This document shows positions 25,817-40,110 of a DNA stretch of 64,000 nt, one piece after another. The notes under the pieces are model-generated. The model worked only from the letters and a program-made list of their open reading frames with translations. It ran no database searches and was not told the origin of the DNA. Each line of letters begins with the position of its first letter. Position 1 is the first letter of the stretch. Source of the DNA: Sphingomonas hankyongi (GTDB taxonomy: Bacteria; Pseudomonadota; Alphaproteobacteria; Sphingomonadales; Sphingomonadaceae); the NCBI RefSeq assembly GCF_023516575.1, contig NZ_JAMGBE010000002.1, positions 558,001 through 622,000 of the forward strand, written 5' to 3'. A program made the translations under genes and the position numbers.

Positions 25817-27769
<1,953 letters not shown>

Positions 27770-28193
27770 CGCTCTCTCAAAAGCGCAAAAGGCGCGTGCC
27801 CCTTAAAATAGGCGCATCCCCTTCAATAACAATGCGCCCTTAGGGAGTGGTGAACGCACCGTGCCGGCAGTCCGTCGAAAATCACGAAGTTGCCGGTGCC
27901 CCGCGCGGATCGGATCCGGCCGCAAGGTCGTAGCGAGCCGAGCGAAGTTGACTCTTTTGTGACCTTCGCGTCGCGCGGTCGCGCCAGCAGTTTTTCGGCT
28001 GAAAGTGGAAGAAACGGGGGTCCTTCCACTTCGTGCCGTTCCGGGGTCGGCAAGTGCTTAGTAGACGAACGGGAGCCATGATCGACCGGTGGCATGAAAC
28101 GGCAGCTGTAGGACAGACGATTCTGAACGCCTGCCATGCGTGCGGAAATTCTGACGAAATCCGTAGCTGGCATTTCTCGATAATCGCCCGCAA
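27770..28193. other. Intergenic region between ftsH and the antiporter gene
   Basis: About 420 bases without a convincing gene. Open frames here lack ribosome sites and family resemblance. The stretch holds divergent upstream regions for ftsH and the antiporter and a strong inverted repeat at 28003-28031. It also marks the likely left edge of accessory DNA inserted between ftsH and tilS: base composition falls just after it. I saw no duplicated tRNA end or integrase. Confidence 0.5.
28003..28031. repeat. Nine-base inverted repeat (hairpin)
   Basis: AAGTGGAAG and CTTCCACTT are perfect nine-base complements around an 11-base loop. No T-run follows on either side, so it is not a standard intrinsic terminator. 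It could be an operator, an RNA hairpin in the antiporter leader, or an insertion scar. Confidence 0.6.
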
Positions 28194-29468
28194 ATGAAAG
28201 GCATGCATGGACTTGCTCTGAGCGCCTTCGACGCCGCCGCTATCCTTGTCGTTCTGACCGCTGTCCTGGCATGTCTCAATCATCGACTTATTGGCTTGCC
28301 CTCCTCTGTAGCGATGACAGTCATGGGTGCGGTGGCATCTCTGATGGTCATCGCCATCGATTACCTGCTTCCAGCGAGCGACTTGTCTGCAATGGTAGGC
28401 ACGTTCCTCGCTGGAATCGACTTTGAGACGACACTCATGGACGGCATGCTCTCATTCCTGCTTTTTGCCGGGGCCTTGCATGTCGATTGGGGTGACATGC
28501 AGCGCGGCCGATGGCCCATCCTCGTATTGAGCACGATCGGCGTTCTTCTTTCGACGCTGATCGTCGGCGGAGGATTCTTTTTCCTCACCTGGGCAATCGG
28601 AGTTCCCTTGCCGCCATCCTGGTGCTTCGTGTTCGGAGCCTTGATCAGCCCGACCGACCCGGTTGCTGTCATGGGCGTGCTCAAACGCGCAGCCTGCCCA
28701 CCGACTTTGCAAGCGACGGTCGCGGGCGAGAGCCTTTTCAACGACGGAGTGGGAGTTGTCGTAGTTGCTATCTTATTGGCGGCAGCCACCGGCTCCGAGC
28801 CTTTCACGGCGATGTCCGCAATGCAGTCATTTGCGCTGGAAGCAGGAGGCGGAGTGCTTTTGGGACTGGCTGTAGGCTCGATTGGCTTCTGGGCGATGCG
28901 TAGCATCGACGAGTACAACGTTGAATTGATGATCACTCTCGCGATGGTCATGGGAGGATATTCCCTGGGACGTTGGCTCCACGTTAGCGGACCGGTTGCA
29001 ATGGCGGTGGCGGGCCTATTGATTGGCAATGCAGGGGTTGCGTTCGCGATGAGCGAAGAAACACGAGACCACGTGCTTAAGTTTTGGGCACTAGTCGACG
29101 AACTCTTGAATGCGATCCTGTTTTTGCTGATCGGGCTGGAACTGATTGCTATTGCTCCGGATGGTCGGCTTGTCTTGATTGGCGCGATTGCCGTTCCCTT
29201 GGTGCTATTGGCCCGCGCTCTGTCAGTTGCCGCACCACTGGCTGCGCTCAAGTGGATTGCGCTGACGGAAGGTTTGTCTTTGCCGGTACTACTCTGGGGC
29301 GGCATGCGAGGCGGAATATCGGTTGCCCTCGCACTGTCCCTACCAGATGGCCCAGGACGGTCCATCATTCTCGCAGCAACCTATGTCGTCGTGCTATTTT
29401 CCGTAATCGTCCAAGGCATCACTATAGGACCATTTTTCAGGCGGTTCGGGCCTTGCGAGGGGAGTTGA
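28194..29468 (+). CDS. CPA1-family Na+/H+ antiporter
   Basis: A 424-residue monovalent cation:proton antiporter with about 12 membrane helices. The ion-binding helix shows ISPTDPVAVMGVL and the next block is GESLFNDGVGVVVV, both CPA1 hallmarks. A late GGMRGGISVALALSLP segment also matches. The large C-terminal cytoplasmic domain of some CPA1 proteins is absent. Third codon positions contain many more A and T than in flanking core genes, which suggests acquisition. ATG 28203 is an alternative start. It converges with the DUF5985 genes. Confidence 0.9.
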   Translation: MKGMHGLALSAFDAAAILVVLTAVLACLNHRLIGLPSSVAMTVMGAVASLMVIAIDYLLPASDLSAMVGTFLAGIDFETTLMDGMLSFLLFAGALHVDWGDMQRGRWPILVLSTIGVLLSTLIVGGGFFFLTWAIGVPLPPSWCFVFGALISPTDPVAVMGVLKRAACPPTLQATVAGESLFNDGVGVVVVAILLAAATGSEPFTAMSAMQSFALEAGGGVLLGLAVGSIGFWAMRSIDEYNVELMITLAMVMGGYSLGRWLHVSGPVAMAVAGLLIGNAGVAFAMSEETRDHVLKFWALVDELLNAILFLLIGLELIAIAPDGRLVLIGAIAVPLVLLARALSVAAPLAALKWIALTEGLSLPVLLWGGMRGGISVALALSLPDGPGRSIILAATYVVVLFSVIVQGITIGPFFRRFGPCEGS

Positions 29469-29478
29469 AACGGACCAG

Positions 29479-29751
29479 TTATGAGGAGGGCTGCCGGTTC
29501 TTCCGCAACACGGCAAGCAAGATCAGGCCGAATGCTGCCAGCCGGAGGACAAATATCGACCCACGCTCCTCAGTGGGTATATTGGCAAGAGCCAGGAGAG
29601 CCTGCCCAACACCCAGAAGTCCGAAGGCCAGCGCGAACGCCACGAACAACTGGTCATGAGTTCGCCGCCAAGCGCGCACGAAGAGCAACGAGCCGACGAA
29701 GAACCCAAACACTACTGCGCCCGAGAGGAAGCTATAAGCTGTCACTTCCAT
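29479..29751 (-). CDS. DUF5985 small membrane protein (copy 2)
   Basis: A 90-residue protein with three membrane helices and a basic C-terminus. RAWRRTHDQLFVAFALAF and the following helices resemble the DUF5985 family, which is typically found as adjacent pairs, as here. Function unknown. ATG 29751 with GGAAGG upstream is preferred; GTG 29760 is in frame. It overlaps the preceding DUF5985 gene by 20 bases, so translation is coupled. Confidence 0.7.
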   Translation of the reverse strand: MEVTAYSFLSGAVVFGFFVGSLLFVRAWRRTHDQLFVAFALAFGLLGVGQALLALANIPTEERGSIFVLRLAAFGLILLAVLRKNRQPSS

Positions 29752-30022
29752 CCTCTTCACCTTCCCAAATGAAGCCCCAAATCAATGATGAAACTGCCGC
29801 TAAGGACAGGGCTAGTCGCACTAGGCTAAGATCAACGTCCGGCCAGACCATGAGGTCTAACACCAGCACGAGGTTGTTCCCTGCCAGGAAAATGAAACAA
29901 ATACTGCTCCACAGTAGCAGGCGCATGCCGGTGCGTTGGAAGCTTCGGCCCAATAACCACGCACAGGCGGCGCTGGTCAGTAGGCAAAGCAAATAAACTG
30001 CGGCGGGAAAGGCTTCAGTCAT
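29732..30022 (-). CDS. DUF5985 small membrane protein (copy 1)
   Basis: A 96-residue membrane protein: AVYLLCLLTSAACAWLLGRSF, then RLLLWSSICFIFLAGNNLVL and PDVDLSLVRLALSLAAVSSL, ending in GFIWEGEE. The DLxLxR signature and three to four helices are typical of DUF5985. The ATG at 30022 overlaps the stop of the winged-helix gene by eight bases and is preceded by GGAGTGG. It probably forms a small complex with its neighbour; the role is unknown. Confidence 0.72.
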   Translation of the reverse strand: MTEAFPAAVYLLCLLTSAACAWLLGRSFQRTGMRLLLWSSICFIFLAGNNLVLVLDLMVWPDVDLSLVRLALSLAAVSSLIWGFIWEGEEDGSDSL

Positions 30023-30392
30023 TCGATCCACTCCGAAGCTTGAATGCCTCCGCAAATGCTGCTGCGCCGCTTGTGCGCGCTCTTACGATTGCACGACACA
30101 CCGTATTAGGCCGACGGCGATAGAGATCCTCAGCGCGATCAACGCTTGCTTCAGCGCCTCGGTTTGCTGGCACATAGACGGCTTCGTCGCCTTCCATGGA
30201 GACGAGCCCGACGGCGACGAGGGCCTCAAGTGCCTTCGACACCACAGCTTCGCTACCTCGCAGCCTAGCGATCAGATCTTGCCGGGCGCAGCTACCATCG
30301 CGGCGCTTGAGCATCAGCAGTAGCTCTAGCGCCCAAACCGACGGGAAGCTGGCCGTGATGAAACGAAGGGTTTCTTCGTCGGAGCTACTCAC
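30015..30392 (-). CDS. Winged-helix-like hypothetical protein upstream of DUF5985 pair
   Basis: A 125-residue soluble protein. Residues 9-75 read as a winged-helix domain: SVWALELLLMLKRR, a turn, DLIARLRGSEAVVSKALEAL as candidate recognition helices and VGLVSMEGDEAVYVPA as the wing. The basic C-terminal part may contact a partner. It starts at a GTG and overlaps the first DUF5985 gene, so it may regulate or sense through the membrane pair. No named family recognised. Confidence 0.65.
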   Translation of the reverse strand: MSSSDEETLRFITASFPSVWALELLLMLKRRDGSCARQDLIARLRGSEAVVSKALEALVAVGLVSMEGDEAVYVPANRGAEASVDRAEDLYRRRPNTVCRAIVRARTSGAAAFAEAFKLRSGSND

Positions 30393-30621
30393 GCGCTCCG
30401 TACCGCCCGCACAGACTGCATAGCGGGTTCCCTAAAATCCCGATCCTCCAATGGCAACCATTGCTCCATCTCGCGCCTTCTCAACGGCCCCAATAGGTCG
30501 AAAGCGGACGCACAGTTTAATTGCCTGCAATGGGATCGGAAGCACACGCAGTTCCGGCCAGTGGAACGCCTCAGTGATTTACCCGACTGACATTGCGGCC
30601 GGCCCGGAACAGCCATCAGCA

Positions 30622-31590
30622 ATGAAGCAAATGTCGATCGCGCCCATTGCCGCGGCGCTCCTCCTTTCCGGCAGCGCAGCAGCCGAGCAGGTCGCGCTGA
30701 ACGGCCGTCCCATCCTAAAGGTCGCCACAAAGCTGAAGCCCGGGCAATATGTCTGGGAGCCGGGGCGAGCGCTGAGCGGCCCGGCCCTCGTCGTCGTCAA
30801 TCTCCATACGCAGCGGCTGCTGTTCTTCCGCAACGGGGTACCTATTGCCGCGTCGACCGTGTCGTCGGGGAAGACGGGACATGAAACGCCGACGGGCGTG
30901 TTCACCATCCTGCAGAAGAACGAGAACCATTTTTCCAAGACCTACAACAATGCGCCGATGCCCAACATGCAGCGCCTCACCTGGAAGGGCGTCGCGCTGC
31001 ACGCCGGGAACCTCCCTGGCTATCCCGCCTCGCATGGATGCGTCCGACTGCCCCTCGCCTTTTCCAAGCTATTGTTCGGCGAGACGGCGGTCGGGATGAC
31101 CGTGGTCATAACGAGCCATCCCGACTTCCCCCACGAAGCTTCGCCGCCGGACCTGGAAGTTGAGGCGGCGCGCAGCCGAGCGTCCCTCGCAAACGCAAAA
31201 TACGAATGGCATCCGGAGCGCGGGCCGGACTTGAACGGGGACGCGATCGTTTCGGTCGTCGTCAGCAAGGCGGACCATCAGGCGGTCGTGATGAAAGGCG
31301 GCGCGAAGATCGGATCGGCGCCCGTCTACGTCCGCGGCAACGTGGTCGGAGCAGAAGCCTATGTCCTGGAATCGTGGGACCACAGCGGGCAGCATTGGGT
31401 GAAGCTGCACTTTTCCGAGACTGGGAAAGGGACGGTTACGAAGCCGAATGAGGCGGAGCATTTCGATGCCCCCACGCAGTTCCGCCATGACCTTCATACT
31501 GTGTTGCGGCCCGGGAGCATCGTCGTCGTCACGCCAGCGAGCCTGCGATCGGGCTTACCCGGCACGCGGGAAACCGTCTTCGAGGGTTGA
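30622..31590 (+). CDS. L,D-transpeptidase (YkuD domain), secreted
   Basis: A 322-residue cell-wall enzyme with a signal peptide ending near GSAAAEQ. The YkuD domain spans about residues 50-160: LVVVNLHTQRLLFFRNG opens it and the catalytic HAGNLPGYPASHGCVRLP supplies His and Cys. L,D-transpeptidases make 3-3 crosslinks or attach proteins to peptidoglycan. The C-terminal half (about 200-300) is an extra domain of unknown type. ATG 30622 begins the signal peptide; the open frame extends further upstream without support. Confidence 0.9.
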   Translation: MKQMSIAPIAAALLLSGSAAAEQVALNGRPILKVATKLKPGQYVWEPGRALSGPALVVVNLHTQRLLFFRNGVPIAASTVSSGKTGHETPTGVFTILQKNENHFSKTYNNAPMPNMQRLTWKGVALHAGNLPGYPASHGCVRLPLAFSKLLFGETAVGMTVVITSHPDFPHEASPPDLEVEAARSRASLANAKYEWHPERGPDLNGDAIVSVVVSKADHQAVVMKGGAKIGSAPVYVRGNVVGAEAYVLESWDHSGQHWVKLHFSETGKGTVTKPNEAEHFDAPTQFRHDLHTVLRPGSIVVVTPASLRSGLPGTRETVFEG

Positions 31591-31621
31591 GCCTAAAAGA
31601 TCGCGAGGACCAAGGCCGAGG

Positions 31622-31873
31622 CTAGACTTCGCTGAGATAGGCCCGCAACCACTTTCGCTGCTCTTCGCCGAACCGCCAGTCGAGGCGGCGCTGAAGGAAG
31701 CCAGCGAGGTAATTCATCACCTGCTCGCGAGGGAAACCGGGCGGCGTCCCGTAATCCGCCAGCCGCGCGTAGATGCGCTGGGAAAGGAACTCGATGACGT
31801 CCCAGTTGGCGGCGGGTTCCTCCTCCGCGGCCAGGATGGCGGACAATTCGGTTCTCAGCTCATCGACGGTCAT
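31622..31873 (-). CDS. Small hypothetical protein
   Basis: An 83-residue soluble, acidic and helical protein: MTVDELRTELSAILAAEEE, then FLSQRIYARL and LAGFLQRRLDWRFGEEQR. No signal peptide or membrane segment. Start at ATG 31873 is chosen because residues upstream in the open frame are low-complexity. It converges with the L,D-transpeptidase gene. Function not recognised. Confidence 0.55.
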   Translation of the reverse strand: MTVDELRTELSAILAAEEEPAANWDVIEFLSQRIYARLADYGTPPGFPREQVMNYLAGFLQRRLDWRFGEEQRKWLRAYLSEV

Positions 31874-32134
31874 GTTCGTTAGCCGCAGACTAACGACGCG
31901 CGTTGTGCCCGCTTCACCGATTGCGACGGCACCTGCGCCGATTGCGACAGCGAAACGCGACCTGGCAGGCAGCGGCCGCAAAGCCCCTAACCCACTTTAA
32001 TTCCATTGTTTTTCCGAATCGCGTATAATTGCCCGGGGACTCGCTCTTCCCATCCCAGCAGGCGAGCCCTCATGCCCTATGCGGCTCGGCGCGATACCCC
32101 TCCGCCGGGCCGCATCCCTTATGAGACCTTCGAT

Positions 32135-32323
32135 CTAGAACAGCAGGCTGTAGCCTCCGACCAAAGTAATGAAGGTGGCGGAGGTGGTCGCGATCATCAT
32201 GCCCGCAACACGCGGCAGCAGTTCCGAGCCAGGACGACGGCTTTCGCGTGCAGCGTCGCGATTCTCGGGAAGGCACTCAGTGCGGACCAGCAGCGTGGCG
32301 TCGACGATTGCGGCGTCAGCCAT
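32135..32323 (-). CDS. Small single-span membrane protein
   Basis: A 62-residue protein with a polar, Arg/Glu-rich N-terminal half and a C-terminal hydrophobic helix (about residues 40-62, MMIATTSATFITLVGGYSLLF). Its ATG overlaps the stop region of the preceding 43-residue gene by eight bases and has little ribosome site of its own, which suggests translational coupling. Together the two look like a secreted peptide and a membrane partner. No family known to me. Confidence 0.5.
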   Translation of the reverse strand: MADAAIVDATLLVRTECLPENRDAARESRRPGSELLPRVAGMMIATTSATFITLVGGYSLLF

Positions 32324-32447
32324 TGACCGGGGCCTGGAGGGTGCTGGCCTGGGCCGGACCGACGGCAGCGCCGACCGCCAGCGTGCTCATGGCGAAGGCG
32401 GCGACGAGGGCAACGAGCGTGCGCTTGGACGAGGACTGAACCGACAT
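32316..32447 (-). CDS. Very small secreted peptide precursor
   Basis: A 43-residue ORF with GGGAG seven bases before its ATG. It has a textbook signal peptide: basic SSSKR, a hydrophobic core of about 18 residues and a predicted cleavage after PAQA. That would leave only about nine residues (STLQAPVNG). The next gene starts inside its end. It lies downstream of the mreB paralogue on the same strand. Coding status is inferred from start, signal and coupling, not homology. Confidence 0.55.
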   Translation of the reverse strand: MSVQSSSKRTLVALVAAFAMSTLAVGAAVGPAQASTLQAPVNG

Positions 32448-32612
32448 TTGAATTCTCCCATTTTTGTTGTCCCGCATCACTTGCGGGCCATGATGGAAGC
32501 TATTCAAAGGCCGTGCCAATGGCGGAAAAGCTTGCTTTTCCGATGAATTGCCGGGCGACACCGAAGCGTTTCAGCCGAGAGTTGGGAGATATTCCCAACC
32601 CGTTCCCGCGGT

Positions 32613-33656
32613 TCACGCCGCGCAAAGCGCGCCCCGGAACTCCGCGTCCTCCAGCATCCTGCCTGCGCCCAACGCGACGGAGAGAAGAGGGGTTTCGGTC
32701 ACGCGAACCTGGAGCCCGGTCTCGTCCGCAAGCACTTTGTCGATGTTGCGCAGAAGCGAGCCGCCGCCGGTCATCGTTATGCCCTGGTCGATGACGTCGG
32801 ACGCAATTTCCGGAGATGCGTGCTCAAGGGCGCTCATGACAGTCTCGACGATATGGTCGATAGGCTCGCGAAGGGCCTCCGCGATCTCCTGCTGACTGAT
32901 GCTGATCTCTTGCGGACATCCGCTTGATACGGCGCGCCCGCGTACCGGACCCACGATGTGGGCGCTTTCAGGCGTGGCAGCAGCAGATCCGATCTGCTGC
33001 TTGATGCGTTCCGCCGCGCCGTCGCCGATCACCAGATTGTGCCTGCGGCGGACATAAGAGGCGATCGCCTCGTCCATCTTGTCGCCGCCGATGCGCACCG
33101 ACGTGCCGTAGGTCAGCGTCTTCAGCGAAGTGATACCCACTTCCGTCGTCCCGCCGCCAATGTCGACCACCATAGCACCGATCGGTTCGGCGACGGGCAG
33201 GCCAGCTCCGATGGCCGCCGCGAGAGGCTCATCGACGAGCCATACCTCCCGCCCGCCGGCATTGAGCGCGGCCGCCCGGATCGCCCTGCGCTCGACGGAC
33301 GTCGCCGCGGACGGCACGCATATGACGATCTCCGGCCCGCGCGACACCCTGGAATGCACGCCGTCGGCCTTCGCGATGAAATGCTGGATCATGGCCTCGG
33401 CGATTTCGAGGTCGTTGATCACGCCGCCAGTCAGCGGCCGGTACGTCCGGATATTGTCCGACGTCTTGCCGGTCAGGATCTTGGCGTCGCGACCCACCGC
33501 GAACACGCGGCGAACGCCGTCGACGGCCTCGATTGCAACGACGGACGGTTCGTCAACGACGATGCCCTGCCCAGGGACATATACGAGTGTGTTGGCCGTC
33601 CCCAAGTCAATTGCGAGGCCGGATGCGCCTGACGAGCCGAAGAAGTTGAAGTCCAT
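32613..33656 (-). CDS. mreB: MreB/Mbl-type actin-like rod-shape protein (paralogue in accessory region)
   Basis: A 347-residue MreB family protein. The phosphate-1 motif [13 protein letters not shown], phosphate-2 [13 protein letters not shown] and adenosine motif [15 protein letters not shown] are intact, so it should bind ATP and polymerise under the membrane. A second mreB lies at 48508-49545; the two are clearly homologous throughout. No mreC or mreD is adjacent to either. This copy sits in the interval that separates ftsH from tilS, diverging from two lipoprotein genes. Confidence 0.9.
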   Translation of the reverse strand: MDFNFFGSSGASGLAIDLGTANTLVYVPGQGIVVDEPSVVAIEAVDGVRRVFAVGRDAKILTGKTSDNIRTYRPLTGGVINDLEIAEAMIQHFIAKADGVHSRVSRGPEIVICVPSAATSVERRAIRAAALNAGGREVWLVDEPLAAAIGAGLPVAEPIGAMVVDIGGGTTEVGITSLKTLTYGTSVRIGGDKMDEAIASYVRRRHNLVIGDGAAERIKQQIGSAAATPESAHIVGPVRGRAVSSGCPQEISISQQEIAEALREPIDHIVETVMSALEHASPEIASDVIDQGITMTGGGSLLRNIDKVLADETGLQVRVTETPLLSVALGAGRMLEDAEFRGALCAA

Positions 33657-33824
33657 GGCGGCTGCTGTCCCGAGGAGCGCATTGGTGGCTCAGCGAGGTG
33701 CCTGTTGGCATCGGGAAATCTGCTGAGGATTCAATAGGGTATCTGCTCGCCCCATCGACTTGACCGAATTGCGCAACCCAAAGGCAATTCGATGCGTTAG
33801 CGCGACGAACAGAGGGATTAGTAT

Positions 33825-34316
33825 ATGCGTACTAAATATTGCGTCGCGCTTTGCGCAATCGCGTTGCTTTCCGCCTGCAAGACAGCATCGAGTGCTGCGG
33901 ATGGCGTGAAAAGCGCCGGTTCAGCAGTCGCGGATGGGGTCGGCAGCGTCACCACATCGCTGGTTAACGTAAATCTTTCGAACGTTCTGAACGATCTCGC
34001 GCTCGACCTTAAGATCGACAAGGCGAACATCCCGATCAACGCCCAAATCCCGATCACGGTCGCTGCAAATGTGTGCGGCGTATCGATCAACATCTTGTCG
34101 ATCGGCGCAGGCGGCGGATCCAGCCAGGGCTGCACCGCCAACAGCATCTCGCCGGAACTGAAGCAGTATATCCAGCAGCAGCTAGCCGCGAACGGCAATG
34201 TCGGCGGGGGTGCGCAAACCAATACGGGCACGACCACGCAGCAGCCGCAACCCCTGGTTTCGCCCACGCCGCAGCCGGGGACCGAGGCGCCCGGCACCAC
34301 AACTCCACAGCAGTAA
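33825..34316 (+). CDS. Lipoprotein with chaplin-like segment (copy 1)
   Basis: A 163-residue lipoprotein; the lipobox LLSAC puts the lipid on Cys18. A region of coiled Ala/Ser/Gly is followed by VNVNLSNVLNDLALDL and then PINAQIPITVAANVCGVSIN, with a second cysteine 18 residues after the first. That beta-strand pattern and Cys spacing resemble Streptomyces chaplins. The tail is Thr/Pro/Gln rich. It is a tandem paralogue of the next gene, 20 bases downstream. Function unknown; an adhesive or surface-active role is only a guess. Confidence 0.68.
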   Translation: MRTKYCVALCAIALLSACKTASSAADGVKSAGSAVADGVGSVTTSLVNVNLSNVLNDLALDLKIDKANIPINAQIPITVAANVCGVSINILSIGAGGGSSQGCTANSISPELKQYIQQQLAANGNVGGGAQTNTGTTTQQPQPLVSPTPQPGTEAPGTTTPQQ

Positions 34317-34336
34317 AGTTCAACGGGAGGATCGGA

Positions 34337-34795
34337 ATGTCAGCAACTTCCTGGAAGTTGGCTATCGCGGCGGCAACCGCCGCATCGCTCGCCATCGGCG
34401 GATGCAAATCGCAGTCCGCGGCCCCGGTCTCGGCCGGAGACACTGCCGCCGGCTCGCCGACCGGAACGAGTGGCGGTTCCGGAACGGGCGGGACCAGCGT
34501 CCCGACTTTGGTCAGCGTGAACCTCCAGAATGTTCTCAACAACCTGTCGGTCGAGCTGAATGTGAATCGCGACAATATTCCCGTCACCGCTCAGGTGCCG
34601 ATCGACGTCGCCGCCAGCGTGTGCGGCGTATCGGTGAGCGCGCTGGCGGCGTCCGTAGCCAACGGCCACGCAAGTTGCACCGCGACAACGACGTCTTCAC
34701 AGCTCTCTCAAGCCGTTCAGCAGCAGATTGCGTCGGGGGGATCTGTCACCGGCGGCGACCAGAACATGGGATCGCCGACGACGAACCAGATGTAG
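34337..34795 (+). CDS. Lipoprotein with chaplin-like segment (copy 2)
   Basis: A 152-residue lipoprotein (lipobox LAIGGC, Cys23) with a Gly/Thr/Ser linker. VSVNLQNVLNNLSVELNVN and PVTAQVPIDVAASVCGVSVS align with copy 1 at nearly every position, and the two cysteines are spaced C-x17-C as in chaplins. GGGAGG precedes the ATG. The pair probably arose by tandem duplication. The downstream oxidoreductase gene follows after 63 bases. Confidence 0.7.
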   Translation: MSATSWKLAIAAATAASLAIGGCKSQSAAPVSAGDTAAGSPTGTSGGSGTGGTSVPTLVSVNLQNVLNNLSVELNVNRDNIPVTAQVPIDVAASVCGVSVSALAASVANGHASCTATTTSSQLSQAVQQQIASGGSVTGGDQNMGSPTTNQM

Positions 34796-34858
34796 CGAAC
34801 ACGGGCCGAGGATTCGCAAAACAGCGGTTTTCCTATAACCGTCCCGGCAGGGGGCGGC

Positions 34859-35977
34859 TTGAAGGATCCCATTGCCATCGTTGGCGCCGGCATTGCCGGT
34901 GCCTATCTCGCCTACCGGCTTGCACGCGACGGGCACGCGGTCCTGGTCGTCGACGATGCGCGGCCCGGACGCGCGACGGGCTGGAACCCGGGCGGCATCA
35001 ACCCGCTGCACGGGCCCGGATTTCCCGGAGCGATGGAGGGCTTCTACCGCGACGCCTTCCGCTTGCATGCCGAGCATCACGAATATGTCCAAGCGCGTTC
35101 GGGTACCGACTTCGGCTGGCGCGTGGTGGACCGTCTTTTCCTCGCGAAGGACGAGCAGGAGGCGGTCCAGCTAAGGAGTCTCGCCGACAAGTATAACGAG
35201 CTGGAAGGCTTCTCCGCGCAATGGATGGACCCGGCCGAAATAGGCCGATGGGACGCGCGTGTGGGCGAATCCTGGGTTGGCGGACTGATGACGAGGGGCA
35301 ACGTACGCGTGGATGCCGAGCGGTACAGGCAGGCGTTGCTCGCCGTCGCCGGGTCGATGGGCGCGGAGATCATAAGCGGCACGCTGAAGGCGGTGGCGAC
35401 GCGAGACAGGGCGATCGAGAGTATCGACTGGGGACACGGCGCGGTCGCGATCCGTCATCTCTGCATGGCTACCGGCTCCAGGTCTGACGACCCGATCGCG
35501 GGCTGGTCACCCGGCAAGATCGTCCCGGTGACACCGGCGATCGGCGATCTCCTGCTGGTCAGATCAAGCGATGCACCGCCGTTGGCCGATGTCAGCAACG
35601 GGCTGACGGCCATCTATCAGCATGACGGCGATCATTTCTGGATCGGTGGAACCGTTCGCGCCGACGGTCCGCTCGGCGAAACGAGCGAGACGATCGAGCG
35701 CGCACTACTGGCCGGGGCGCATTCGCTCATGCCGGGGTGGAAAGCGCCTGAAGTGGTCGCTCGTTCTTCGGCCGCAAGGCCCGCCACAGCCGATGGATTG
35801 CCCGCAGTCGGGCAGACGCCTAATTACGCAAACGGCTGGATCATCAATGGCCTGGGGGGCAAGGGCATCTTGTTATCGGCGTGGACCGCGGAAATCGTCG
35901 CGAGAATGATCGGCGCCGAGGCGGCGCTCAACGAATTCGCGACAGTGTCACCTGATCGGCCGGCCGACCATGGCTGA
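34859..35977 (+). CDS. FAD-dependent amine/amino-acid oxidoreductase (DAO family)
   Basis: A 372-residue flavoenzyme. VGAGIAGAYLA (residues 8-18) is the dinucleotide fold, and the closing NGLGGKGILLSAWTAEIVA is the second FAD contact typical of D-amino acid/glycine oxidases. It starts at TTG 34859 with AGGGGGCGG just upstream; translation from there begins at MKDPIAIVGAG. Its end overlaps the next gene by eight bases, so oxidoreductase and PLP enzyme are one unit. It likely oxidises a C-N bond of an amino acid or amine in the pathway of the NRPS gene opposite; substrate unknown. Confidence 0.82.
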   Translation: MKDPIAIVGAGIAGAYLAYRLARDGHAVLVVDDARPGRATGWNPGGINPLHGPGFPGAMEGFYRDAFRLHAEHHEYVQARSGTDFGWRVVDRLFLAKDEQEAVQLRSLADKYNELEGFSAQWMDPAEIGRWDARVGESWVGGLMTRGNVRVDAERYRQALLAVAGSMGAEIISGTLKAVATRDRAIESIDWGHGAVAIRHLCMATGSRSDDPIAGWSPGKIVPVTPAIGDLLLVRSSDAPPLADVSNGLTAIYQHDGDHFWIGGTVRADGPLGETSETIERALLAGAHSLMPGWKAPEVVARSSAARPATADGLPAVGQTPNYANGWIINGLGGKGILLSAWTAEIVARMIGAEAALNEFATVSPDRPADHG

Positions 35978-37181
35978 AAGCTACAGGCTCATCTGCAAGG
36001 ACTGCGGCTCGGACCAGTCGGCGACCTTCGCGTCCTTCTGCGATTGCGGCGGCCTCATCGAAGCTCGCTACGATCTCGGCTCGGTCAGGCTGCGCGACAG
36101 CGACGATCCTCACCAACGCTATTTCGACCTGCTGCCCGTGCGGGACCAGTCCCTCCTCGCGCCGGGCATAAGGACGCGCACCGTTCACGCCCGCAACCTC
36201 GGGTTGCGGCTTGGGCTCAACCATCTTTACCTCAAGGACGAAACCGAAAACCGCACCGGCACGACGAAGGACCGGATGGCGGCCGTGGCGCTGCCCTTCC
36301 TCTATGAAGGAGGTGTCCGGCATTTCTGCACATCCTCGACCGGCAACAGCTCGACAAGCTACGCGCAGGCGATGGGGCAGATCCCGGAAATGCAGATGGA
36401 GCTGTTCACCGCGGAGGACTTCAAGGACCGCGTCCACTATGCCGCGACGCCGCAGGTTCGGCATCATGTGCTCAGGGAAGCGAGCTTCGTCGACGCGGGC
36501 GACCATTCCATCACTTATGCGCGGGAGAATGGGCTCGTTGCCGAGCGCGGCTTCTTCAACCTTGGCCGGCGCGAGGGCCTAAAGCTGCCCTGGCTGGAAG
36601 CGCTCGAACAGGTCTCCCGGTCGATCGACTGGTACGTGCAAGCGGTATCGAGCGCGATGGGGGTCCACGGAGTTTACAAGGCCGCCAAGGAAGCCGTCAC
36701 GATCGGCGCGGCCGCCAAGGTGCCGAGCCTGCTCTGCGTGCAGCAGGAAAGCTGCCGGCCCATGGTGCACGCCTGGGAAGAGGGCAGCACAACCATCCAG
36801 CCTCATCATATCGTTAAGCGTCCGACCGGGATTGCCGAAGCGATCCTGCGCGGAAACCCGACCAAGGCTTACCCGATCATCCGCGAAATCGTCGTCGAAA
36901 GCAGCGGGACCATGAACTCGGTCAACGACGCGGAAATCCGCGAAGCGCAGGCGCTTGTGCTCGAAGATGAGGGGATCAAGATCTGCCCTTCCGCAGCGAC
37001 CGCCGTCGCCGGGCTGATCAAGCTGGCAAAGAGCAGCGATGCGCTAGCTGACCAGAAGATCCTGGTGAACCTGACTGGAAGTGTCCGCGAGGGCGCCACC
37101 CCCGCTCCCATCGATCAATGGTGGGAAAAAGGTGCCGACGAATGGGTGGAAGCCGGGCAGCCGGTTGATCTGCCTGCCTAG
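35970..37181 (+). CDS. PLP-dependent threonine-synthase-like enzyme
   Basis: A 403-residue fold-type II PLP enzyme. An N-terminal zinc ribbon (Cys9, Cys12, Cys24, Cys26) precedes the core. The probable Schiff-base lysine is Lys100 in GTTKDRMA, the phosphate cup is TSSTGNS (121-127) and the C-terminal LNLTG-type segment is VNLTGSVREG. It resembles threonine synthases and cysteate synthases, which do beta or gamma replacement on phosphorylated amino acids. The window shows no thrA or thrB beside it, and it is coupled to an oxidoreductase and faces an NRPS gene, so a secondary-metabolite role is more likely. Confidence 0.82.
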   Translation: MAESYRLICKDCGSDQSATFASFCDCGGLIEARYDLGSVRLRDSDDPHQRYFDLLPVRDQSLLAPGIRTRTVHARNLGLRLGLNHLYLKDETENRTGTTKDRMAAVALPFLYEGGVRHFCTSSTGNSSTSYAQAMGQIPEMQMELFTAEDFKDRVHYAATPQVRHHVLREASFVDAGDHSITYARENGLVAERGFFNLGRREGLKLPWLEALEQVSRSIDWYVQAVSSAMGVHGVYKAAKEAVTIGAAAKVPSLLCVQQESCRPMVHAWEEGSTTIQPHHIVKRPTGIAEAILRGNPTKAYPIIREIVVESSGTMNSVNDAEIREAQALVLEDEGIKICPSAATAVAGLIKLAKSSDALADQKILVNLTGSVREGATPAPIDQWWEKGADEWVEAGQPVDLPA

Positions 37182-39775
37182 ACCCGATTGCGGAGATGCG
37201 CTCTTTGCTCGACCGTACCCCGGTTTGTGCGGTTCGCCTGCATTTTGGCGCGGTATTCCCGATCAATCTGACGCACGCGAGCGAGACAGTTTTTCAGAAT
37301 GCCGGCGAACTCCTGATTGTCCGGGGACAGCATCTCGCCGTGGCCTCCATCGACCATGAACACTTCGGCCTGCTTGCCGAAAACATGCTGCACGTTTCCA
37401 TCCACAAACCAACGCTCCCTGGTTGCGATGATCATGGATGTGACGGGTAGCGGGTTGGGATCGTAGACGCGAAGAGCCCGCTCGATCGCGCGCCCGACGT
37501 CTATTGCTGCTTTCACGGCGCTGGTGTCGTGAATATCGATGTTCCAGTCGCCGACGACGGCGCGGCGTGCCATCTGTTCCAGCAAATGCTCTTCGTAACA
37601 TTGGTCGTCGGACTGTTGCGTGCGATTGAGAAACGGCGGGTCGATCAGCAGCGGACGATAGAATTTCTCGCCCATTCGATGGAGCAGACGGATCATCTCC
37701 AGCGCCACATAACAACCGGCGCAGAACCCGCCGAGGAAGTAGGGACCCTCAGGCTGCACGGTCTTGATGGCGCGCACATATTCCGCCGCCATCGCCTCGA
37801 GGGTCTCGTGGGGCTTTTGCTTGCCGTCGAGCCCGCGGGCCTGGAGCGCATAGAGTGGCTGATCCTCGCCCAGCAGCTCGATGAAATGTGGGCCGACATG
37901 GGCCTGCCCTCTGCGTCCGTGAACCACGAACAAGGGCGGCGACGATCCCTCGGTCCTGATCGGCAAGAGGATCGGCGTATGGATTTCGCCGTCGGTTGCA
38001 TGCTGGCGCAGCCAGGCCGCGACGCCTTTGACCGTGGCATCCTCGTGCAGCTCCGAGAACTGCCAGCCGAAATTCTCGGTCGCGAGAATCTGCAAGTTGA
38101 CTAGGCTCAGCGAATCCCCGCCAAGCAGGAAGAAATCGTCCAGGCGTCCGACCGATGGCTGGTTGAGGACTTCCGAGAAGATCGCCGCGACCCTCTCCTC
38201 AATCTCGTCTTCCGGAGGAACATAGCCAGGGCGGAAACGCACCTCGTCGAGGTTGAGCGCTGCCAGCGCGTTGCGATCGACCTTGGAGGTCGCCGTATAA
38301 GGAAATGCGTCGAGGAAAACGTAGCCGCCGGGAAGCATATAAGTGGGAAGCAAAGTCGCCAGCGTCTTGCGGATGTCACCGACCTGATGCTCACCGTCGG
38401 CGCCGCCAGTCACGTAAGCGAGGATTTCCTGCACTTCCTGTCCCGATCCGCCGCGCGGCAGGACCACCGCCCCGGTTACCCCGGCGCATTCGTAGAGCGC
38501 CGCCTCCACCTCGGCGAGGTCGACGGCCTGTCCGCGAAGCTTGATGCGGGATCCCGAACGGCCAATGAAATTGAGATTTCCGGCCTCGTCGATGAAGCCG
38601 AGGTCGGCGCTCCGGTAGCGCCGCCAGACCGGCCGTCCGTCGACATCAGCGAAGGCCTGCGCATCGAGATCGGCGCGATTGAGGTAGCCGGTGCAAATGT
38701 GCGGGCTGGCAATTGCGATGTTTCCGCTTTCGCCAACGTCGGCGACGCTTCCGTCTTGGCGGACGATCCCGATCTCGACGCCTTTGGGCGGTTTTCCGAC
38801 AGGCAGCGGGCCTTCGATTTTCTCGTGCGCGCTCGTGACTTCGAGGCTGCTGATGAAAGACGCCTCGGTCGCCGCGAGCCGATTAAGGATGCGGCAGTCG
38901 GCGCGAAAATGCGGACGCATCCGGGTGACATCGCTGGCGAACAGCATCTCACCCGCCAAATCGACCACGCGAACGCTGTCGAAGACCTTGCGCTCGCCGA
39001 TCGCGCCGCACAGCTCCCGCACGACGGTGGGCACGGTGTGAAGAAGGACGATGCCTTGCTCGTCGATCCATCGGGCCATGGCCGCGAAGGATTCGTCCTT
39101 CACCTCGAACGCGCACAATCGCGCGCCGGTGAAGAGAGCGCCGTAGATATCCATGTTCGACGCGCTCGCGCCATGCGCGAACAGCCAGGAGATTGGATCG
39201 CGTGCGCCAATCTCCATCGCCGAAATGTAGGCGTCGACATAGAAACAGAGGTTACGGTGCGTCTGGCAGACGCCCTTTGGCTGACCGGTCGAGCCCGACG
39301 TGTAGGACACATAGACAAGGCTGTCCGGCGAAAGGGCCGGTCCAGCCGTCTCCGGTTCGTCGCCCGGTTTCAGGCTGTCGAGATCGATGATGCCCGCGCC
39401 GATGGCGGCCAGGCTTTCGCCACGCGACATCAGGGCCTGATCTGCCATGATCGCAAACGGCCTGACTTCGTTGAGAATATGCCCCAGCCTCTTGTCGGGA
39501 TCGTTGACGTCGAGGAGGACGTAGGCGTGGCCCGAACCCGCGACGCCCAGCATCGCCACCAATGCATTGACCCGATCTGCCGTCAGGATGGCGACGAAGC
39601 CCGGTGCCGACGGACCAATCGCAAGTATCTGCGCTCGAGCGGTCGCGGCCAGCGCAGCGAGCTCCGCGTAGCTGAGCGAAACATCGGCGTTCGAGTAAGC
39701 GACTTCCGATGGGTAAGCATCGGCGATCGATGCGAACCGCTCGTATACGGTCAGCTCAGCTTTTTTAGCCCCCAT
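37178..39775 (-). CDS. Single-module NRPS (adenylation-PCP-thioesterase) with Cys-type TE
   Basis: An 865-residue enzyme. Adenylation domain, about 8-505: SYTSGSTGQPKG (157-168), RLAATEAS (299-306), YRSADLGF (387-394), GRSGSRIKLRGQAVDLAEVE (405-424) and a SKVDR lysine motif (497-501). PCP: LGGDSLSLV, carrier Ser555. Thioesterase, about 612-835: the nucleophile motif is GFCAG, Cys685, instead of GxSxG. Asp712 and His812 lie 27 and 127 residues on, the same spacing as Ser80, Asp107 and His207 of the surfactin TE. There is no condensation domain. The residue matching Asp235 of A domains appears to be Ser. The stop codon is shared (CTAG) with the convergent PLP gene. Confidence 0.9.
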   Translation of the reverse strand: MGAKKAELTVYERFASIADAYPSEVAYSNADVSLSYAELAALAATARAQILAIGPSAPGFVAILTADRVNALVAMLGVAGSGHAYVLLDVNDPDKRLGHILNEVRPFAIMADQALMSRGESLAAIGAGIIDLDSLKPGDEPETAGPALSPDSLVYVSYTSGSTGQPKGVCQTHRNLCFYVDAYISAMEIGARDPISWLFAHGASASNMDIYGALFTGARLCAFEVKDESFAAMARWIDEQGIVLLHTVPTVVRELCGAIGERKVFDSVRVVDLAGEMLFASDVTRMRPHFRADCRILNRLAATEASFISSLEVTSAHEKIEGPLPVGKPPKGVEIGIVRQDGSVADVGESGNIAIASPHICTGYLNRADLDAQAFADVDGRPVWRRYRSADLGFIDEAGNLNFIGRSGSRIKLRGQAVDLAEVEAALYECAGVTGAVVLPRGGSGQEVQEILAYVTGGADGEHQVGDIRKTLATLLPTYMLPGGYVFLDAFPYTATSKVDRNALAALNLDEVRFRPGYVPPEDEIEERVAAIFSEVLNQPSVGRLDDFFLLGGDSLSLVNLQILATENFGWQFSELHEDATVKGVAAWLRQHATDGEIHTPILLPIRTEGSSPPLFVVHGRRGQAHVGPHFIELLGEDQPLYALQARGLDGKQKPHETLEAMAAEYVRAIKTVQPEGPYFLGGFCAGCYVALEMIRLLHRMGEKFYRPLLIDPPFLNRTQQSDDQCYEEHLLEQMARRAVVGDWNIDIHDTSAVKAAIDVGRAIERALRVYDPNPLPVTSMIIATRERWFVDGNVQHVFGKQAEVFMVDGGHGEMLSPDNQEFAGILKNCLARVRQIDREYRAKMQANRTNRGTVEQRAHLRNRV

Positions 39776-39836
39776 GGGATTAGGCTACGTTCCCGCGCGA
39801 ATGTCCGCAACGGTCGCGCTTGCGGCCCGAGGAACT

Positions 39837-40061
39837 TCAGAAGCTTCGGCGCGATCCATTCCGCCAATCGAATGCAGGCGTTCCCGCCGCAGTCGCAAAA
39901 TCGATTTCGGACGACCCGCAAGTTTCAAGAGTCTTCAACCGGTCGAGGAAGATGCCCGCCAGGATCATGCGTCGCTCCCGCGCCGCCTGCGTGACTGCGC
40001 GGCCGGCAGCCGCAAGCTCCTCATTCGCGCGGCGGCGATAGAAACGTGCATCCGATTCCAC
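39837..40061 (-). CDS. Small helical protein with GTG start
   Basis: A 74-residue ORF beginning at GTG 40061 with a strong GGGGGAGGAA six bases upstream. The first 46 residues are highly charged and helical (SDARFYRRRANEELAAAGRA, then ARERRMILAGIFLDRLKTL), giving an amphipathic helical hairpin; the rest is polar. It lies 49 bases after tilS on the same strand. Short charged proteins of this look occur in sphingomonads, but I cannot name a family. The strong ribosome site is the main evidence. Confidence 0.6.
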   Translation of the reverse strand: MESDARFYRRRANEELAAAGRAVTQAARERRMILAGIFLDRLKTLETCGSSEIDFATAAGTPAFDWRNGSRRSF

Positions 40062-40110
40062 GGATTCCTCCCCCGCCGATCGTAGAAACCCCGAGTCGGC
40101 AAACGCGAAT

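Follow-up and report, generated by a model that had tools for sequence, protein, structure and literature searches.

A three-gene locus of Sphingomonas hankyongi joins a flavin oxidoreductase, a threonine-synthase-like enzyme and a one-module nonribosomal peptide synthetase-like protein, and recurs in distant bacteria

A stretch of 64,000 nucleotides from Sphingomonas hankyongi (contig NZ_JAMGBE010000002.1, positions 558,001 to 622,000; hereafter the window, meaning the whole stretch) carries adjacent genes for a flavin adenine dinucleotide (FAD)-dependent oxidoreductase, a fold-II pyridoxal phosphate (PLP) enzyme and a single-module protein of the nonribosomal peptide synthetase (NRPS) type. 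Comparison across genomes supports the view that these three genes form one pathway and stay together. A shared pathway had been suggested in the initial annotation, a reading of the sequence without database searches, and it is borne out insofar as the neighbourhood recurs and the identities of its proteins correlate. We further propose, at somewhat less than an even chance, that the genes constitute a patchily spread, jointly kept small-molecule pathway with a non-peptide product, made from a unit derived from a phospho-amino acid and from a 2-oxo or 2-hydroxy acid. The presence, recurrence and correlated divergence of the genes and the pocket of the NRPS-like protein are supported by the data; every substrate and product named below we infer from sequence.

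The FAD gene (34859..35977, + strand; 372 amino acids (aa), TTG start) and the PLP gene (35970..37181, + strand; 403 aa) overlap by eight bases at 35970-35977, and the NRPS-like gene (37178..39775, - strand; 865 aa) faces them. A single CTAG (37178..37181) is common to the convergent stop codons on both strands: the PLP gene stops at its TAG, and the NRPS-like gene at the TAG of its reverse complement. Gene calls and sequence reproduced this previously described layout exactly, and all three reading frames are intact. The domain assignments first made from visible motifs were likewise recovered by Pfam, with DAO (148.9 bits) in the FAD protein, PALP (124.5 bits) in the PLP protein, and AMP-binding, AMP-binding_C, PP-binding and Thioesterase in the NRPS-like protein, for which no condensation domain was listed. 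The last thus consists of adenylation (A), peptidyl carrier protein (PCP) and thioesterase (TE) domains. Its PCP motif GGDSL, with the phosphopantetheine residue Ser555 (38111..38113, - strand), and its thioesterase motif GFCAG, with Cys685 (37721..37723, - strand) as a nucleophile in place of Ser, are complete. Structure models reached pLDDT (predicted local distance difference test) values of 90.6 for the PLP protein and 77.3 for the NRPS-like protein.

Scanning a genome collection with the PLP protein identified 17 loci (given L numbers here), 16 of them at 48-58% identity over the best segment; the other, L050, is 32% identical and is counted apart. The count is a lower bound, because the peptide patterns used in the search derive from the window's own protein. 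The loci carry labels from Pseudomonadota, Spirochaetota, Chlamydiota, Nitrospirota, Planctomycetota, Acidobacteriota, Cyanobacteriota and Actinomycetota, and these organism labels may in part be wrong, since metagenome bins account for most of the loci (the titles of L043 and L049 do not mark them as such). The PLP frame is broken in L049, a Streptomyces record, and the gene is cut by the end of the contig in L046. Among plasmid records, 68 matched the PLP enzyme, all below 60% identity and the best among the matches listed at 30.0%, and of 18 pattern matches on viral contigs none was a relative.

Partners of the PLP gene were assigned by profile searches of the loci. Directly before it, in the window and the 15 loci where this slot could be scored (the contigs of L034 and L046 are too short upstream), lies an FAD gene in 8/16 cases (the window, L036, L037, L041, L043, L044, L045 and L047) and a homologue of the nickel-pincer enzyme LarA in five (L035, L038, L040, L042 and L048). 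No locus held both at E <= 1e-5. Genes of the A-PCP-TE type occur in the window and in seven of the 17 loci (L034, L035, L038, L039, L040, L047 and L048), adjoining the PLP gene or, in L048, one gene apart from it. Pfam confirmed the A, PCP and TE domains in these seven proteins, the thioesterase of L039 falling just under the cut-off (25.7 against 26.4). The co-occurrence that the initial annotation had offered as a check is found in part: partners recur in distant bacteria, but in five loci a LarA homologue stands where the FAD gene would be. As a control, 20 threonine-synthase-like loci (~1.4 kb per side) yielded no LarA homologue, no A-PCP-TE gene and three weak DAO matches, with E values of 1e-9 to 1e-11 as against 1e-155 or better within the family, a gap that arises partly by construction, since family members went into the profiles.

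Several neighbouring features were seen in single loci. L049 has a DAO fragment ~6 kb from its PLP gene and, near that broken gene (L049:2475-5147), an APH-type phosphotransferase domain that could possibly be a source of a phospho-amino acid. Divergent from the FAD-PLP pair, L041 and L045 encode related proteins (L041:4744-6540 and L045:4867-6720) beside a carrier protein and an adenylating enzyme; Pfam finds TPR repeats in that of L041.

Where partners are shared, they diverge together. Pairwise identities of PLP and FAD proteins correlate over eight loci (r 0.89; 0 of 5000 permutations as high), as do those of PLP and A-PCP-TE proteins (r 0.73, eight loci, p 0.003; the stand-alone A matches of L041, L042 and L045 were left out). 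Recurrence of the partners in distant bacteria and this correlated divergence indicate that the arrangement is more than chance. On the PLP tree, labels of different phyla stand side by side; FAD presence requires three changes (no shuffle out of 500 needed so few) and LarA presence two (3 of 500), these shuffles being easier to beat because threonine synthase rows were included. Ten of the 24 inner branches are starred and nine are open. Identity to the window's proteins is 47-55% for PLP (L050 apart), 26-33% for FAD and 27-33% for the NRPS-like proteins, so that the PLP step, conserved as its partners drift, looks like the constrained core.

The relatives sampled showed no such locus. Three overlapping samples were searched with the PLP protein, one of 60 relatives, one of 395 genomes from the order and one of 397 from the phylum, each with the window's own genome (2.55 Mb, 99.96% complete) in addition, and no orthologue was found in any of them. 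At E <= 0.001 a match was present in 43 of 61 genomes, all except the window's own being only 24-30% identical; at E <= 1e-20 two of 396 order genomes matched, the window's own and G156; and among 398 genomes from the phylum, searched at E <= 1e-80 with a profile of the family, the window's own was the only match. The G156 protein, the nearest other match in the order (locus L029, 31% identity), was rejected as an orthologue because it is a threonine synthase by cut-off and tree. The PtsP-YbgF-TilS block is retained in all ten same-genus relatives inspected, and no match to the three genes was found within ~9 kb of tilS in them. (TilS and FtsH were named by cut-off and YbgF by eye; the PtsP protein exceeds the cut-off of the general PTS_I model.) In three of the four relatives whose flanks were compared (L082, L085 and L089) TilS and FtsH lie ~1-3 kb apart, and in the fourth, L083, ~8 kb apart with other genes inverted between them. 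The window has 12.3 kb between ftsH (25817-27769) and tilS, and all three genes fall within this interval (27770..40110); their GC content is 0.61-0.645, versus 0.66-0.67 on the tilS side. We interpret the region as a strain-specific insertion, and the patchy spread of the genes very probably reflects horizontal transfer.

The initial annotation had set the PLP enzyme outside threonine synthesis and had named, as the finding that would speak against this, its being the only threonine synthase of the cell. That possibility is excluded: a second PALP protein of the genome (C2:371457-372359) scores 583.2 bits with the threonine synthase model PRK08197 (NF006050), above the curated cut-off of 303, and stands with threonine synthases in the tree. 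The window's protein scores 124.1 bits with this model, and ten comparison proteins including the genome's second one score 583-647. It also falls below the cut-off of a further threonine synthase model, TIGR00260 (70.7 against 167.1 bits), which alone does not discriminate because the comparison proteins listing it are slightly below as well. In the tree, from which L046 and L049 were left out as they were from the alignment, 15 family members and L050, on a very long branch, separate with 100/100 support from 11 other rows: nine proteins of relatives (24-30% identical), the genome's second protein and that of G156. Ten of these 11 were scanned, and all are threonine synthases by cut-off. The family shares superfamily and fold with threonine synthase but forms its own clade.

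By its model, the PLP enzyme appears nearer in fold to the cysteate synthase CapA2 of Alistipes finegoldii (PDB 9k3c; template modelling (TM) score 0.82 by query length) than to threonine synthases, which come next. CapA2 is nonetheless just 22% identical, and the family differs in context by sitting with FAD or LarA genes and an adenylating enzyme. The patterns E..G..N..RR.G and D.Y.QAV.S..G are common to CapA2 and the family alignment, in which Lys100, the G-N-S of the STGNS motif and four N-terminal Cys (9, 12, 24 and 26) are invariant. Ser155 and Asn188 of the Thermus thermophilus threonine synthase, which we take to contact the substrate phosphate, correspond to Phe195 and Ser228, and Arg160 is retained as Arg200; in this alignment, read by hand, the RR pattern is again shared with CapA2. 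We would expect a phosphate-leaving-group enzyme whose second substrate is particular to it.

The FAD enzyme resembles glycine oxidase ThiO and other DAO proteins in fold, with 4ysh as its best PDB match, but misses the curated ThiO cut-off (TIGR02352, 126.9 against 250.8 bits). Its Arg307-Pro308 pair is invariant in 8/8 proteins and aligns with the Arg-Pro of glycine oxidase, where the Arg presumably holds the substrate carboxylate; by analogy this suggests a free acid as substrate. The enzymes that replace it in five loci share both domains and active-site positions with the LarA racemases. Lar_N and LarA_C were confirmed by Pfam in the two homologues scanned (L035 and L042), and positions H108, H174, K184 and H200 of L035 are retained in all five; in PMC11770544, H108 and H174 of LarA are catalytic and K184 and H200 are cofactor residues. 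The family is described as 2-hydroxy acid racemases that work by hydride transfer in PMC11770544 and PMC12611868. The window's genome gave no Lar_N match.

The pocket of the A domain (residues 204-308; 38852..39166, - strand) bears on what the NRPS-like protein loads. Its code at positions 235, 236, 239, 278, 299, 301, 322, 330 and 331 reads SAMHDARFI, with Ser204 at the place of Asp235, the residue that we take to hold the alpha-amine in amino-acid-activating A domains. Asp235 is absent from 8/8 A-PCP-TE proteins, which have Ser, Ala or Gly instead; therefore the load is probably not an alpha-amino acid. The initial annotation's activation and release of one acid stands, with this change in the probable nature of that acid. 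Six of the eight proteins (the window, L034, L035, L038, L040 and L048), with an overall identity of ~30%, have the pocket S/A-A-M/L-H-D-G/A-H/R-V/F-x. Its S/A-A-M/L-H-D part is found in none of 11 control A domains, taken from ten plasmid stretches, nine of which have Asp235. A pocket common to these six proteins despite such identity, and absent from the controls, makes a shared substrate likely among them. The register is supported by alignment with LgrA and by two controls that read DFWNIGMVH and DFWNVGMVH, presumably the threonine code.

The two controls without Asp235 lie in L092 and L093; the latter, whose last two pocket letters differ between two readings, resembles L039. L093 encodes an 840-aa AMP-binding protein of an Emticicia plasmid, which shares the pocket pattern xGRHYAG with L039, has no PCP or TE match in Pfam and sits after a gene of the uroporphyrinogen-decarboxylase family.

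Both enzyme families of the upstream slot take a hydride from C2 of carboxylic acids and the pocket favours an acid without an alpha-amine, and it is on this convergence that the proposed pathway is built. Judging from fold and family, the PLP enzyme would act on an O-phosphorylated amino acid, most plausibly O-phosphoserine, whose phosphate it would replace or eliminate; the product would be a beta-modified amino acid or the corresponding oxo acid. The FAD enzyme would take the C2 hydride from a free carboxylic acid, converting an amino (or hydroxy) acid to a 2-oxo acid; elsewhere its place is taken by a LarA-type nickel-pincer enzyme, whose family takes the C2 hydride from 2-hydroxy acids, and the C2 step may accordingly be an oxidation or an epimerisation. 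The A domain would charge the PCP with a polar 2-oxo or 2-hydroxy acid, which lacks the alpha-amine. With no condensation domain at hand, the thioesterase might then free it as a dimer or a ring, or pass it to a small acceptor, for which the amino acid from the PLP enzyme is a candidate. Beyond this, we think it rather less likely than not, though well conceivable, that the loci represent a wide but sparse family of mobile mini-pathways in which an undescribed phospho-amino-acid PLP enzyme, an interchangeable flavin-oxidase or nickel-pincer C2 hydride step and an A-PCP-TE protein yield a new class of non-peptide signals or antimetabolites.

A number of observations weigh against this proposal. 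Its chief weakness is that AcpS is the only carrier-activating enzyme matched in the genome: one PF01648 match at E <= 0.001 was the sole phosphopantetheinyl transferase found, it is AcpS by TIGR00516 (82.6 bits, cut-off 59.8), and no Sfp-type transferase was detected by this search. AcpS might serve the PCP, so that activation of the PCP in this genome is at most putative; L038, for its part, has a HetI/Sfp-like gene. Neither FAD nor LarA lies directly before the PLP gene in three of the 16 scored slots (L039, L049 and L050). The adenylating enzyme stands alone in five loci (L037, L041, L042, L044 and L045), two of which have a separate carrier-protein match (PP-binding was confirmed for L041), and it was not found in L036, L043, L046, L049 and L050, of which the contigs of L036 and L046 are shorter than 4 kb. 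The pockets are not uniform either. L047, which also has FAD and A-PCP-TE genes, reads GAVHAGTPV, L039 differs too, and the window departs from its kin at 322 and 330; the window is the single FAD locus linking this pocket to the LarA loci. Arg75 of LarA is at the exact column in only two of five homologues, with an Arg one column earlier in the three homologues of one alignment. Near pairs supply part of both correlations: that of PLP with FAD drops to r 0.79 or 0.75 without L041 or L045 (19 and 22 of 5040 permutations as high) and that of PLP with the NRPS-like proteins to 0.50 without L040 (181 of 5040). The FAD proteins, moreover, are just 26-33% identical to the window's.

Other readings of the three genes were weighed. 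The FAD enzyme could make a 2-oxo acid, two molecules of which the A-PCP-TE protein would condense to a furanone- or quinone-like product. We take RalA and XfsA to be bacterial enzymes of this kind, with adenylation, thiolation and thioesterase domains (A-T-TE), and assume that they and the fungal dimerisers likewise lack Asp235. The window's protein has the same domain order as these synthetases, no condensation domain and an adjoining oxidase, but a polar pocket (His, Asp, Arg/His), a PLP partner of another class and a Cys nucleophile set it apart; both this difference and the likeness to RalA, XfsA and the fungal enzymes are by description, and oxo acids are no obvious outcome of the LarA loci. 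We judge this unlikely. According to PMC9047271, non-reducing NRPS-like enzymes of fungi join two aromatic alpha-keto acids. Alternatively, the A-PCP-TE protein would load a 2-hydroxy or other acid, and its thioesterase would acylate the amino acid made by the PLP enzyme, at its amine or hydroxyl, to form an amide or ester. The missing condensation domain fits, and the LarA slot of five loci points to a 2-hydroxy acid; given that the acceptor is hypothetical and that such transfer is not readable from sequence, we regard this as equally improbable.

A cysteate-type pathway, in which the PLP enzyme would act as cysteate synthase and the FAD enzyme would oxidise the sulfonated acid before its activation, would accord with CapA2 as best fold match, with the patterns shared with it and with cysteate synthase (TIGR03844) as the top NCBIfam match of the PLP protein. 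That match, at 129.7 bits against a cut-off of 324.9, together with the 22% identity and a pocket Asp ill-suited to a sulfonate, leaves it highly unlikely. Still harder to credit is that the genes are chance neighbours or a decayed island, with a commonplace oxidase, a redundant threonine synthase and the functionless remains of an NRPS. The strain-specific region and the presence of AcpS alone would suit it, but intact frames and motifs, the return of these partners in distant bacteria and the correlation of their identities already disfavour it.

No described cluster of this kind was found in the open-access literature, judged mostly by title and the start of the abstract and with subscription papers outside the scope. 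That the initial annotation knew of no described cluster with exactly this set agrees with this result, but the set is not unique, as L047 has FAD, PLP and A-PCP-TE genes in one row. The component enzymes belong to known superfamilies; what is apparently new, at least to us, is their combination, the exchange of one partner and the pocket. Term searches of the main text found neither threonine synthase nor nonribosomal enzymes in PMC7583248 and no threonine synthase in PMC12611868, and PMC11770544 has threonine twice, as a residue in the portions consulted. If true, a flavin/nickel-pincer swap in one operon slot would link the poorly understood LarA family to specialised metabolism. A pathway of three genes is small enough to express and solve, and searches aimed at large multimodular NRPS would miss it. 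That it recurs in records from many phyla suggests a product useful in many settings.

The ftsH-tilS interval, occupied by other genes in L082 and L085, holds further genes in the window. An MreB/Mbl protein (32613-33656, - strand; 403 bits), with no counterpart in the ~9 kb around tilS in the ten relatives, may be a second MreB. The interval also encodes an L,D-transpeptidase (YkuD; 30451-31590, + strand) and a Na+/H+-antiporter-like protein, which is under cut-offs (28194-29468, + strand). Two tandem small lipoprotein-like genes (33825-34316 and 34337-34795, + strand) are similar by eye and gave no Pfam match; the second, co-oriented with the FAD gene and ending 63 bases before it, might be part of the operon.

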